26,115 nt of DNA from a virus. The stretch covers positions 1 through 26,115 of the IMG/VR virus record IMGVR_UViG_3300032083_001852; one strand, 5' to 3'. Positions 14,761 through 20,454 of the stretch are shown in pieces. Below the pieces are notes generated by a model that did not search any database, was not told the DNA's origin, and saw only the letters and a list, made by a program, of their open reading frames with translations. The position numbers and the translations under genes are program-made. Position 1 is the first letter of the stretch, and every line of letters begins with the position of its first letter.

Positions 14761-14972
14761 TAACTTGCCTCCGCGTCTAGCAGGCTGCCAATAATCTCAA
14801 TCCGCCTCGCTGCATCACGGATCGCCTCACGAAATGGCCGTCGGTCGCCCACGCCTTGCCTTAATGTCGCCAGCTCTTGCTCTGCTGCCTGGAGTTCCTG
14901 CTGCTGCAAGTGCAATGCGTATAGCATCGTTTCGCGCTTTGGGTCTGGCACTAATTTTTTTCTGCGTTTCAT
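14760..14972 (-). CDS. small coiled-coil protein
   Basis: The protein has 70 residues from ATG 14972, which shares ATGA with the methyltransferase stop; a longer frame to 15038 would lie inside that gene. The N-terminus is basic (MKRRKKLVPDPKRE), then a helix (LHLQQQELQAAEQELATLRQ) with a strong heptad pattern, then a second helix (REAIRDAARRIEIIGSLLD). It is probably a dimeric helical protein. Function unknown. Confidence 0.66.
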   Translation of the reverse strand: MKRRKKLVPDPKRETMLYALHLQQQELQAAEQELATLRQGVGDRRPFREAIRDAARRIEIIGSLLDAEAS

Positions 14973-15526
14973 ATATTCCCCCACTGGTCGGCCATAGCGG
15001 TTGCAATACCCTGATAGGTGGTGCTTCTCAGTTTCCATCGGTCTGCGCTTGGCGGTAATTTATGTATCCGGTCATCGCGGCCTTCAACAATGTTTGTAGG
15101 TTGCAGTAATGGTAAGTTTTTGAGCCACAAACAAGTGGCTTTTGTTTCTCCATGCCCATATTCCCAGGGATGGATGATCTGTTCAGGCTTTCGCCACATT
15201 GACGACATAATACAAACCGGGTTTTCTATCGCTATTTGTGGAATGTCTGTCTTAGCAAGCATCATAAAAAAAGACACGGCTGACTGCTGCCTGCCATCCA
15301 TCCGTTTCGCTTTAAAATGACGCGCCCCCGATACGCTTAAATGAGTGCAAGGCGGGTGGGCAATCATCAAATCCCAGGGATAGTTGATAACATCACAAAC
15401 ATCCCCCTGGTAGTGCGGCCCTTCGCTTTCAGTCGGCAACAGATCACAACTCATCGCGTCGTGGCCCTTCGCTATAAAAGCATCGCGCACAACTCCTGAG
15501 TATTCGCACGCGACCAACACCTTCAT
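14969..15526 (-). CDS. small DNA (cytosine-5)-methyltransferase-like protein
   Basis: The protein has 185 residues. It would transfer a methyl group from S-adenosylmethionine to cytosine C5. The SAM-binding opening is VLVACEYSGVVRDAF with a later Asp at 28; motif IV is HPPC with the catalytic Cys at 60; motif VI is ENP at 101-103. The usual target-recognition domain and the long C-terminal motif X region are missing or very short (typical enzymes exceed 300 residues). Small phage enzymes of this build exist, but target and activity are unknown. It could protect phage DNA from restriction. It overlaps upstream and downstream genes by ATGA. Confidence 0.78.
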   Translation of the reverse strand: MKVLVACEYSGVVRDAFIAKGHDAMSCDLLPTESEGPHYQGDVCDVINYPWDLMIAHPPCTHLSVSGARHFKAKRMDGRQQSAVSFFMMLAKTDIPQIAIENPVCIMSSMWRKPEQIIHPWEYGHGETKATCLWLKNLPLLQPTNIVEGRDDRIHKLPPSADRWKLRSTTYQGIATAMADQWGNI

Positions 15527-17660: not shown

Positions 17661-18962
17661 TTAGACGTTTTTGTATTTTTCGGTTATCTGGCGTTGCCTT
17701 ATTGCCTGGCTTTTTGTCGGGGCCAACCCCAAATATTTGCAGGTATGGTCGTTTTTCAAGATCGTTAATGCAAACCGCTTCCAGGAAGTCACCATCGAGT
17801 TATGGGTTCTAAGCTGATCCAAGTGGTCAGGTGGGCGTTTGATAATTACACGGCGCAGACTGTTTCCGCCATGAGGCGTTACGCCGTTTAACGCGAACTT
17901 TACTCCATTCGAAGCCATGTCCTCGATAATCTCTTCTGGGAGTCCACGGCCCACCCTCCCCCAGAACTTAATCGACTGGATGAACCGTTGCTTAAAATTT
18001 TCAGAGACCTCCTTTGGCAGCGTGTCTAACAGAAACTTGGTAAACGACTTCCATGTGTGACCTTCTGGAAGAGAAAAGCTCCTGTAGCTTAGTTGCTTGC
18101 CGTAGGTGGCAATAAAATTAGCCCCTTGGACTCTAGCGCACAATTTCGCCCATGTTGATGGGTCAATAACTCGATACAGAGATAGGCTGGATTTTGATTC
18201 GCTCATAAACGGCGATGCTACTCGCATAGACCCAACCGGGACACCGGCACGGTAAAAAACATCGTAGAGCCGGTTATATTCCCATTCAAACTTGCTATTC
18301 GCCGTCCATATGTCGTCCGTTCTCCAGTCAAATATTGGGTAACAGTTGAACGTATGCGCGGTGTTTTTCTTTGTCCAGTTCTTCCCGCCGATCGTTACCT
18401 TTCTGTCATTCATTATCGCTCGGAAACGGTTAAGACTTTCGTCGGCCCTAATCCCAATAAGGTTTGCACATGGCTTGCCTTGTGAGTACCACTCTGCGAA
18501 CCCATCCCAGAATTCGTCATAAGGCATATTTTCTTCAAAGAAGTCGAACTCGTGGTTATCTATCGTCACGATATAATCGTCGTTCGGTATTGGCCTAATC
18601 CACCTGGCTTTATCGTCCTCGCCCCAGCATCGCCACTCAACAGCGTAACTGCTGACCGTGCACGGCAGAGTGATAGGAAGGCAGCACCAGTAAACATCGA
18701 GCAGGTCAAGATTATCGTCGATGATCTTTTTCATGAATGAAAGCGAATCTTCGTAATTGGCTTCGTTATCGAGGATTTGAACGCCGATTTTTTCGGTTAT
18801 CTGGTTCTCCCTCATGTACATAAGTACGAGATTCAACATCACGCCAGAGTCTTTCCCACCTGAAAACGACAGGTATATCCGCTCGAAATTATTAAAAATA
18901 AAATCTATTCGATCCATTGCAGCATCAAATACATTCAGGTCTTTATTGTAGATTCGCTTCAT
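17661..18962 (-). CDS. IbrA-like PAPS-reductase-family protein (DUF3440)
   Basis: The protein has 433 residues from ATG 18962, which shares ATGA with the upstream gene. It is an ATP-pyrophosphatase-fold protein with the P-loop SGGKDSG at 34-40, GIRADES at 170-176 and YPIFDWRTDDIW at 208-219, the motifs that define the adenylyl/phosphosulfate-reductase superfamily branch used by IbrA and DndC. The C-terminus contains SWKRFALTILKNDHTCKYLG, a DUF3440 module. IbrA with IbrB is known to activate eib genes in E. coli; biochemistry is unknown. It is the last gene of the four-gene cassette and appears intact. Confidence 0.87.
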   Translation of the reverse strand: MKRIYNKDLNVFDAAMDRIDFIFNNFERIYLSFSGGKDSGVMLNLVLMYMRENQITEKIGVQILDNEANYEDSLSFMKKIIDDNLDLLDVYWCCLPITLPCTVSSYAVEWRCWGEDDKARWIRPIPNDDYIVTIDNHEFDFFEENMPYDEFWDGFAEWYSQGKPCANLIGIRADESLNRFRAIMNDRKVTIGGKNWTKKNTAHTFNCYPIFDWRTDDIWTANSKFEWEYNRLYDVFYRAGVPVGSMRVASPFMSESKSSLSLYRVIDPSTWAKLCARVQGANFIATYGKQLSYRSFSLPEGHTWKSFTKFLLDTLPKEVSENFKQRFIQSIKFWGRVGRGLPEEIIEDMASNGVKFALNGVTPHGGNSLRRVIIKRPPDHLDQLRTHNSMVTSWKRFALTILKNDHTCKYLGLAPTKSQAIRQRQITEKYKNV

Positions 18963-19270
18963 TTTATTAACCTCATTTGTTTGCTGGGCTTTTTCATTCC
19001 TGATTTTAACGGCTCGTACCATTTAGACCTTTTTGGCCGGAATCCCAGGGAGTGCAGGTTTAAGTCGTTTTTTAATATGGCTATAGCGACCGCCTTCCAT
19101 GATGGTGCGCGCCTTGAATCCATGAGCTTTTTCGGAACTTCGTCTGGAATGCCATCAGAATAACATCTCTCGATCCATGTATTCTCGTACTCCCTCACCC
19201 GATCGGCGACTGTTTTCCCAGATCGAAATGGCTCTATCTGCTTCTCTATTCGCCAGTGTTCTTTGCTCAT
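18959..19270 (-). CDS. small protein with stand-alone IbrA C-terminal (ILKND) module
   Basis: The protein has 103 residues. Residues 57-80 (SWKAVAIAILKNDLNLHSLG, then FRPK) align directly with the C-terminal module of the IbrA-like neighbour. The N-terminal VREYENTWIERCYSDGIPDE is also a pattern of DUF3440-type proteins. The P-loop domain is absent. The best start, ATG 19270, lies 116 nt inside the upstream gene, an unusually long overlap, with a GGGGG stretch about 10 nt upstream. It is translationally coupled to ibrA-like by ATGA. It may be a partner or regulatory subunit of the IbrA-like protein. Confidence 0.75.
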   Translation of the reverse strand: MSKEHWRIEKQIEPFRSGKTVADRVREYENTWIERCYSDGIPDEVPKKLMDSRRAPSWKAVAIAILKNDLNLHSLGFRPKRSKWYEPLKSGMKKPSKQMRLIK

Positions 19271-19562
19271 CAGTCAAATACCCCCACGCCTCCCTGGTTA
19301 TGTCCTCTGGACAAGCCAGCGCCAACGCTGTCGCAGCGTGACCAATCCACGCTTTTTTATTAAGGTTTTGATCGGTCAGCGCATTTTCGCAGCTGTTAGG
19401 CCACTCGCAGATGACGCGAACCATGAATCGCCCGTACTTTTTATGGTCAGATGTAAAGGCAATTGCCTTTTTTAAATAGACTTTGCGGTTGGCAACTTCG
19501 CCCCACATATTCGCCTCAATTTCTTCCCATTCATGAAACGGGTGATAAATCCGTTTATTCAT
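19155..19562 (-). CDS. conserved unknown protein of the IbrA/IbrB cassette
   Basis: The protein has 135 residues from ATG 19562, which overlaps the upstream gene by 8 nt. The opening KRIYHPFHEWEEIEANMWGE and the core KAWIGHAATALALACPEDIT, then REAWGYLTDEQRTLANREAD, are well-structured and conserved-looking, with a central SCENALT turn. No catalytic motif is recognised. It lies between the EctC/ParB fusion and the ILKND gene, so it probably belongs to the same pathway. The 3' end overlaps the next gene by 116 nt in another frame. Confidence 0.75.
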   Translation of the reverse strand: MNKRIYHPFHEWEEIEANMWGEVANRKVYLKKAIAFTSDHKKYGRFMVRVICEWPNSCENALTDQNLNKKAWIGHAATALALACPEDITREAWGYLTDEQRTLANREADRAISIWENSRRSGEGVREYMDREMLF

Positions 19563-20454
19563 TTTCAGCTTCCCAGCTTTCGGAAAAATCACGGTTGCTG
19601 AACAATGCCGCAACACCGGTTATCTGTTTCATCCTTAAAAGCTCGTCGGCGCTCATTCCGATATGCTTACAAATCCACCTGTCGCCTTTGCCCATTTCTA
19701 CCAGCTCGGCAACTATCGTGCTCATAAGGTCAATGTTGTGCGACCCTCGAGCACGGTTGTGGCGGATAGTAGAAGCCATCCTGTCGCCGATAGATTTATC
19801 GAGCACGACCACCGGCAGCAGCCCTTTTTCACGCTCCCTAATGCGGTCGCTATTTTTGATTGTTAAATACCGATGAAATCCGTCAACTACAACGTAGACT
19901 TCGTTTTCTTCGTCATAACAAGTAACAACCGGCTGCGTATACCCATCTTCCCAAATAGAGGTTTCTAATAGCGCCATTTCTGGCGGGGCTACCGAATTTG
20001 GGTTGTAGTCATTAGCGACTACTTTTTCAATAGGAACGGGGATGACGTTATAAGTCGGTGAATTTGATCGCGGCGACGGGTAAGAGCCGTCTGGCGAGTG
20101 CAACTCTCCGCCGACCAATGGCGGGTTGAACACGCATATCAACTCTACTTCTTCAATAGCCTGGAAGTAATGATCATCATTATTGTCAAGGATGTAGGTT
20201 GTCCCTGCTCCTATCGCGTGCTCTTCGCCCGTGGCGGCATCGGTCAAAATTCCATTGCCAGAAATGCAGTAGCACGTCTCTATATGGTTCTTGTAATGCC
20301 AATGCTGCTTTTCCCCTGGTGGGATTATTGTTCTGGTCATGGAGTACCCGGCGTTATCGCTAGCAACAACCAACCGACTGCTGACAAATCCGCCATTGGG
20401 GCAGCTAACCTGCCTTTCTGTTCCTTCAATATCAATATTTTTTACTACTTTCAT
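19555..20454 (-). CDS. EctC-like cupin fused to IbrB-type ParB domain
   Basis: The protein has 299 residues. Residues 1-125 are an ectoine-synthase-like cupin: HYKNHIETCYCISGNG (53-68), TTYILDNNDDHYFQA (85-99) and CVFNPPLVGGELHSPDGSYP (107-126). In EctC of Paenibacillus lautus the iron ligands are Glu57, Tyr85 and His93; here Glu59, Tyr87 and His95 sit at the same spacing. Residues about 135-299 are an IbrB/ParB-type domain with VVDGFHRYL (189-197), TIRHNRARGSHN (229-240) and MSADELLRMKQITGVAALFS (267-286). A GAGG ribosome-binding site precedes ATG 20454. The fusion of these two folds is unusual; ectoine genes ectA and ectB are absent. Substrate unknown. Confidence 0.85.
   Translation of the reverse strand: MKVVKNIDIEGTERQVSCPNGGFVSSRLVVASDNAGYSMTRTIIPPGEKQHWHYKNHIETCYCISGNGILTDAATGEEHAIGAGTTYILDNNDDHYFQAIEEVELICVFNPPLVGGELHSPDGSYPSPRSNSPTYNVIPVPIEKVVANDYNPNSVAPPEMALLETSIWEDGYTQPVVTCYDEENEVYVVVDGFHRYLTIKNSDRIREREKGLLPVVVLDKSIGDRMASTIRHNRARGSHNIDLMSTIVAELVEMGKGDRWICKHIGMSADELLRMKQITGVAALFSNRDFSESWEAENE

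Follow-up and report, generated by a model that had tools for sequence, protein, structure and literature searches.

The systems most closely related to the one considered here are the IbrA/IbrB pairs, in which an enzyme with a PP-loop and a DUF3440 domain is encoded beside a ParB-like protein. Such pairs include ibrAB of E. coli, the chromosomal ybdNM of E. coli K-12 (PMC9068703) and the likewise chromosomal lmo1310/lmo1309 of Listeria, where the pair is listed beside the SNF2 gene lmo1311 (PMC5736727). In the openly licensed literature searched, we found no biochemical function for IbrAB. Here we describe an IbrAB-containing cassette of four overlapping genes, located at positions 17661–20454 of a 26,115-nucleotide stretch of viral DNA (IMG/VR record IMGVR_UViG_3300032083_001852, positions 1 to 26,115; hereafter, the window). 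The cassette has the same two core proteins, but its IbrB carries a cupin resembling ectoine synthase (EctC), two further proteins are encoded by coupled genes, and the C-terminal domain of IbrA also occurs as a separate protein. The core pair is already known; no account of the five-domain cassette was found in the openly licensed literature searched. The annotation of two cultured phages that carry it, Gaia and XCL1123, already names an 'ectoine synthase/ParB multidomain protein'.

As an initial annotation of the window had reported, the cassette consists of four overlapping reading frames, all present in the order and within the limits given there. They lie on the minus strand. We designate the domains A (IbrA), B (IbrB-type ParB with a helix-turn-helix, HTH), C (a 135-residue orphan), D (a 103-residue protein) and E (the EctC-like cupin); read from 20454 to 17661, the genes encode E+B, C, D and A. 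The first product (19555–20454) has 299 residues, E occupying approximately residues 1–130 and the IbrB-type ParB/HTH part approximately 131–299. The gene for C (19155–19562), a protein that was modelled as all-helical with a predicted local distance difference test score (pLDDT) of 91.9, overlaps the E+B gene by 8 nucleotides. It also overlaps, out of frame and over 116 nucleotides (19155–19270), the gene for D (18959–19270), the so-called ILKND protein, and residues are conserved in both frames. The listed reading frame for IbrA starts at 19022 and comprises 453 residues. A start at 18962 appears more likely, because homologues align from there and because its ATG overlaps the stop codon of D as ATGA (18959–18962); the product, encoded at 17661–18962, would then have 433 residues.

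To collect related loci, we used the four proteins as seeds. Each scan retained the best 80 places, loci near the window being over-sampled, and yielded in total 291 loci, which were merged by shared exact 300-mers into 159 distinct sequence groups. This set includes one bacterial contig from a metagenome-assembled genome (MAG), L082, and excludes the window (L081) and L156–L165. Among the matches listed, all five domains were found together in 140 of the 159 groups, in agreement with the proposal that the genes act as one unit; this co-occurrence also rules out four unrelated genes that merely overlap. The order seen in the window, E-B-C-D-A, was found in just 4 of the complete groups and is a rotation of the commonest one, A-E-B-C-D (121 groups); the remainder were AECDB (6), CDAEB (5) and BCDAE (4).

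Most of the 19 incomplete groups end at a contig edge. The clear exceptions are L232 and L233, which lack E; L223, which lacks E and has an unassigned 174-residue reading frame between A and B; L268, with C reduced to a short stub and no D; L175, with only D and a fragment of C; L299, arranged as A-GNAT-B; and L005, with a peroxiredoxin instead of E. The scans taken singly gave a similar picture. In the first (80 viral loci plus the window), relatives of E+B were present in 81 of 81 loci, C in 79 and D in 77, and IbrB relatives were encoded with IbrA in all 81. The scan seeded with E+B, limited to the matches listed, favours loci bearing E. Of 73 newly fetched loci seeded with C, 67 had all five domains, four were cut by the contig end, one had D fused to another gene and one lacked E; in this count the filter for D excluded reading frames longer than 300 residues and hid the fusion in L088 described below.

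The ratios of nonsynonymous to synonymous substitution (dN/dS) had medians of 0.046 for A (31 pairs), 0.095 for C (12 pairs) and 0.081 for D (27 pairs), which shows purifying selection on all three. These low values, together with the recurrence of the genes, rule out C or D as spurious reading frames. Because gene orders are reshuffled at constant content, C and D are fused into one reading frame in L044 and L057, and E and B are fused in some loci and separate reading frames in many others, the sequence comparisons point to the cassette being one functional unit.

The E+B protein matched both Pfam Ectoine_synth (5.4e-42) and phrog_2159, a ParB-like family in PHROGs (1.8e-76); Pfam ParB_N alone was below threshold (0.0087). 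In the B part, the motifs DGFHR and HNRARG were kept in 79 of 81 rows, and a profile of B gave weak matches to ParB, Noc and SbnI. The E domain shares its sequence family and iron ligands with ectoine synthase (PF06339) and even exceeds the NCBIfam cut-off for the ectoine synthase subfamily (NF009806, 142.9 bits vs 128). In PMC6344544, loss of the iron-ligand residues of ectoine synthase (Glu-57, Tyr-84 and His-92) is reported to cripple the enzyme, and Trp-21 to be conserved in all the bona fide and orphan EctCs examined. By alignment, the functional residues given in that source correspond to E59, Y87, H95, F23, R27, T40, T42 and Y54 of the E domain. The equivalents of the three iron ligands, E59, Y87 and H95, were each kept in 78 of 80 rows. 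The position equivalent to Trp-21, on the other hand, never held tryptophan (0 of 80 rows). In 60 rows the residue there was F, M, I or L, and 20 rows had a gap, of which 19 had no tryptophan nearby and one (L060) was empty in that region. The equivalent of Asn-38 was kept in 1 of 80 rows, being replaced by Thr in 57 and by His in 16. Because the iron ligands are kept but the substrate tryptophan is not, E is probably not an ectoine synthase, and we infer that its iron centre is intact and its substrate new. The cassette domain differs from ectoine synthase also in being fused or adjacent to a ParB-like protein, and no match to EctA or EctB was found among the four cassette proteins in Pfam, PHROGs or NCBIfam, the rest of the window not having been scanned for them.

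Rather than being an independent unknown, the ILKND protein, D, is a detached second copy of the domain with which ordinary IbrAs end; the two are paralogues. Against Pfam, D gave only a weak DUF3440 match. Its profile, however, recognized the C-termini of ordinary IbrAs from Pseudomonas phage Amjad_SA, Microcystis phage Mwe-JY13, Chlorobiaceae phage CV-1-33 and E. coli phage PhiR5_2 with E-values of 4e-19 to 3e-13, and D matched (9.3e-8) the family phrog_15645, which spans residues 207–408 of the PhiR5_2 IbrA. As both the profile and phrog_15645 match ordinary IbrA in this region, the cassette holds the domain a second time. The profile matched the cassette's own long IbrAs far more weakly at their C-terminal end (1e-7 to 2e-5). 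The possibility that D is always separate could be dismissed, since canonical IbrAs carry a D-like end. In one locus (L088:4074-5336), a DNA polymerase processivity factor (phrog_947, 1.1e-34) carries D fused at its N-terminus; Pfam gave no support for a sliding clamp, this identity coming from PHROGs only.

For C, none of Pfam, PHROGs, NCBIfam and PADLOC gave a family match. Its predicted fold gave a best E-value of 2.0 with Foldseek against the PDB and a best Z-score of 3.1 in a VIA structural comparison (root-mean-square deviation, rmsd, 5.4 over 78 aligned residues), while a viral library contained a single relative, the unnamed A0A649V0K8 with 54% identity. Such weak structural matches do not show a new fold. 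Sequence searches of the PDB with IbrA and C returned no usable match. The genes for C and D overlapped by at least 90 nucleotides in 48 of 74 loci, and within the overlap, compared in 48 sequences, there were 10 conserved positions of C and 6 of D. The 116-nucleotide overlap in the window is long for a coupled phage gene pair.

IbrA itself matched DUF3440 (PF11922; 1.2e-56, 191.8 bits vs a curated cut-off of 25) and PAPS_reduct (PF01507; 1.9e-9, 38.2 bits vs a curated cut-off of 22.5). In 31 aligned rows, the SGGKDS loop was invariant and the GIR-x-x-ESLNR region invariant or nearly so. Over residues 25–276, the structural model had human FAD synthase (8rom) as its nearest neighbour (Z 15.4, rmsd 3.3, 170 aligned), then CysD (1zun; Z 14.4, rmsd 3.0, 166 aligned), then adenosine 5'-phosphosulfate (APS)/PAPS reductases including CysH. 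A PP-loop fold is supported by this model. Accordingly, the proposed likeness to the fold of DndC was borne out as far as the PP-loop is concerned; the link to DndC itself is only distant, at 16.6 bits (0.0027) against an NCBIfam cut-off of 290.4, and PADLOC found weak similarity only, to DndC (6.4e-7), BrxP and SspD. The NCBIfam score for cysH, 22.4 bits, was also far under its cut-off (165.1). An ECG motif is a feature of PAPS reductase (CysH), and on inspection of the sequence no cysteine of IbrA lies within such a motif. Cysteines 113, 114, 121 and 132 are near-invariant in the IbrAs of the cassette clade. As a set, these four are not shared with canonical IbrAs; the cysteine following the ILKND-type motif was retained in 9 of 9.

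We also scanned with two divergent IbrAs as seeds and obtained 130 groups, which overlap in part with the set of 159. Their arrangements were AB (50), BCA (32), CAB (29) and AEBCD (8), the rest being minor. In viruses, then, C often accompanies IbrAB as a third member, and E and a separate D mark an elaborate form; a restriction of C to the five-domain cassette is ruled out by its occurrence with plain IbrAB. The trio of Amjad_SA and Mwe-JY13 has A, B and C in common with the cassette but neither EctC nor a separate D, and its IbrAs end in a D-like domain. Only 4 of the 50 AB groups had a gap of at least 300 nucleotides between A and B. Three of these gaps (L303, the contig of L299; L417; L327) hold a GNAT acetyltransferase according to Pfam, and the reading frame in the fourth (L304) resembles that of L299 by eye. 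The GNAT genes between IbrA and IbrB lie at L299:4586-5014, L300:410-832, L417:3723-4136 and L327:6001-6396, and the enzyme in the EctC slot of L005 (3868-4617) is a 1-Cys peroxiredoxin. A helicase cluster adjoined or lay near IbrAB in 18 of the 130 groups; Pfam identified one member as SNF2, and PHROGs two as DNA helicase. Separately, an unnamed family of approximately 130 residues ('DYxxANxxGSRGVY') was encoded directly upstream of IbrA in 23 of the 130 groups, in AB-type viral loci (L373:4228-4605 and 22 related ones); the member in L375 matched phrog_26647.

Among cultured phages, the full cassette was found in Mycobacterium phage Gaia (genes 103–107) and Pseudoalteromonas phage XCL1123; both differ from the window in having the order A-E-B-C-D. 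In Mycobacterium phage Nebkiss, A, E+B and C were matched. Gaia has an extra small gene between B and C (L157:7179-7553), whose Nebkiss counterpart, gene 105, is annotated as a GIY-YIG-like endonuclease. The scans based on C, which were limited by search patterns so that their counts are lower bounds, found 1 locus in a genome collection of 84,980 species vs 181 viral stretches. The single locus, L082, is a complete AEBCD cassette on a Planctomycetota MAG contig, which may come from a phage and have been assigned to the MAG during binning; a PF11922 survey centred on its phylum gave 1 of 294 genomes, namely that same MAG, the control genomes of E. coli and Lactococcus lactis giving matches. 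The simple IbrAB pair was present in 1,913 of 5,426 complete E. coli genomes and in many phages. This distribution, with the K-12 and Listeria homologues mentioned above, does not agree with the earlier statement that IbrA and IbrB are known only as regulators of eib genes.

The E domain had five matches among 50,697 phage records: Gaia (two records), Nebkiss, XCL1123 and one unverified faecal contig. On the last, EctC follows what appears by eye to be an EctB aminotransferase, and the contig is probably bacterial DNA. When the EctC of a Marinobacter plasmid served as a seed, two viral relatives were found, both with all five domains.

The terminase, portal (phrog_156) and head proteins recognized in the window, together with a RecE-type exonuclease and an annealing protein of the Erf type, identify it as tailed-phage DNA. 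The cassette is flanked upstream by a match to a transcriptional repressor (phrog_35) and downstream by one to a primosomal protein (phrog_9327), as anticipated from its reported position in the replication region. It is not a fixed feature of the cII slot: many loci adjoin exonuclease, primase-type or helicase genes instead. Neighbours of these types were seen in many AEBCD loci (counted per locus, without deduplication). A small protein encoded at 14969-15526 of the window matched phrog_757, 'DNA methyltransferase' (1.8e-73); a cluster with a similar start was found near the cassette in 9 loci, again per locus and not deduplicated.

How, then, might the cassette work? The initial annotation had suggested DNA modification or anti-defence, and the sequence evidence leans towards modification. 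Our preferred reading, which we hold tentatively and would rate somewhat short of an even chance, is that the cassette is a set of several enzymes, carried by phages and moving horizontally between them, that modifies a substrate covalently in the course of phage DNA metabolism, its substrate and DNA target being presumed. Conserved in it are the PP-loop of A, the ParB-type motifs of B and the iron-site residues of E. A would bind ATP and activate (adenylate) a substrate, and B, with its ParB/sulfiredoxin fold and helix-turn-helix, would be the partner handling nucleotide and DNA. The new group would then be tailored by whichever enzyme is encoded between A and B, in the present case by iron-dependent cyclodehydration through E, in relatives by GNAT acetylation or peroxiredoxin redox chemistry. 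C and D may serve as adaptor subunits, D being the second copy of the IbrA C-terminal domain. The likeliest target would be phage DNA or its nucleotides, which is the weakest step of the scheme; that the modification acts on DNA is suggested by the exonuclease and helicase neighbours, the fusion of D to a processivity factor in L088 and the primosomal neighbour in the window. A bolder and more doubtful version is that IbrA–IbrB constitutes a general adenylating core that attaches to DNA, or to a nucleotide, a group with an amine or amide, to be finished by exchangeable tailoring enzymes. The E cupin, as a neofunctionalised ectoine synthase, would close a cyclic amidine, GNAT or peroxiredoxin enzymes would act in relatives, and the whole would represent an undescribed class of phage nucleic-acid hypermodification.

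Several observations weigh against a modification of this kind. Helicases and exonucleases are usual in early regions of phages, which makes their presence near the cassette a weak argument for a DNA target, and the fusion of D to the processivity factor was seen at a single locus. The argument from the slot concerns a handful of contigs, that of L223 holding a different, unassigned 174-residue reading frame, and IbrAB without any slot enzyme is common (the 50 AB groups, nearly all closely spaced). The IbrA model is of middling quality (pLDDT 68.5). The pairwise protein distances among the five domains are correlated (r 0.60–0.84 in 141 groups, a level reached in 0 of 500 permutations), which speaks for a unit, but the correlation, made without a flanking-gene control, does not distinguish a unit from shared phage ancestry. 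Finally, the only IbrAB function that we found reported is transcriptional activation of the prophage eib genes (PMC6008420, citing Sandt 2002).

Because that activation is the only reported IbrAB phenotype we found, real weight attaches to the alternative of an early regulator, in which IbrB binds DNA, IbrA modifies or licenses IbrB, and phage or host expression is switched, with E, C and D in sensing or accessory roles. The repressor-type gene adjoining the window cassette would suit such a role, as would the cro-like or antirepressor genes that lie close to IbrAB in an E. coli phage and in a Streptococcus phage. Yet the enzyme motifs of A, B and E are strongly conserved, the replacement of E by GNAT or peroxiredoxin suits a pathway better, and many AEBCD loci adjoin exonucleases and helicases; we regard a regulator as possible but on balance unlikely. 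Less probable still is an enzyme of anti-defence or nucleotide signalling, which would make or destroy a small nucleotide or protect the phage DNA against host defence. Counter-defence is a frequent role of such accessory genes in phages, and C is essentially phage-borne in our scans, but IbrAB alone is common in bacterial genomes, and PADLOC, which lists defence rather than anti-defence proteins, gave for IbrA just the weak similarities to DndC, BrxP and SspD.

As to sulfur chemistry, Dnd phosphorothioation likewise combines a PP-loop enzyme (DndC) and a ParB-superfamily protein (DndB) in one system, which makes it a useful comparison for how the cassette may work, and a resemblance of PAPS-reductase-like proteins to DndC has been noted for Mycobacterium prophages (PMC8092301). 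That IbrA acts as a DndC, introducing sulfur into the DNA backbone, would also agree with its weak DndC matches and with the four conserved cysteines of the cassette clade. Nevertheless, the NCBIfam score is far from the DndC cut-off and the cysteine set is not common to canonical IbrAs. No DndA, DndD or DndE was matched among the four cassette proteins, nor any desulfurase in Pfam, PHROGs, NCBIfam or PADLOC; the cassette has an iron cupin instead, and an iron cyclase or an acetyltransferase has no obvious place in such chemistry. We therefore consider phosphorothioation improbable. Largely refuted, and in our opinion scarcely credible, is a set of host-metabolism genes by which the phage would boost sulfate assimilation (as PAPS reductase) and osmoprotection (through ectoine). 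The database names speak for it, as does a 2026 virome paper that reads viral ectoine synthase as osmoprotective (PMC13079714); the low CysH score, the missing ECG motif, the complete loss of the Trp-21 equivalent and the lack of EctA or EctB matches in the cassette speak against it.

Irrespective of the chemistry involved, virome genes labelled 'PAPS reductase' or 'ectoine synthase' may be mistaken for genes of host metabolism. Because the EctC matches in phage records are nearly all this cassette, the osmoprotective interpretation in PMC13079714 may be wrong. Two cultured systems carry the cassette, Mycobacterium smegmatis with phage Gaia and Pseudoalteromonas with phage XCL1123. The cassette links the IbrAB pair to three further parts, of which two are orphans and the third has half-known chemistry, and it narrows the question to the role of an iron cyclodehydratase beside IbrA.

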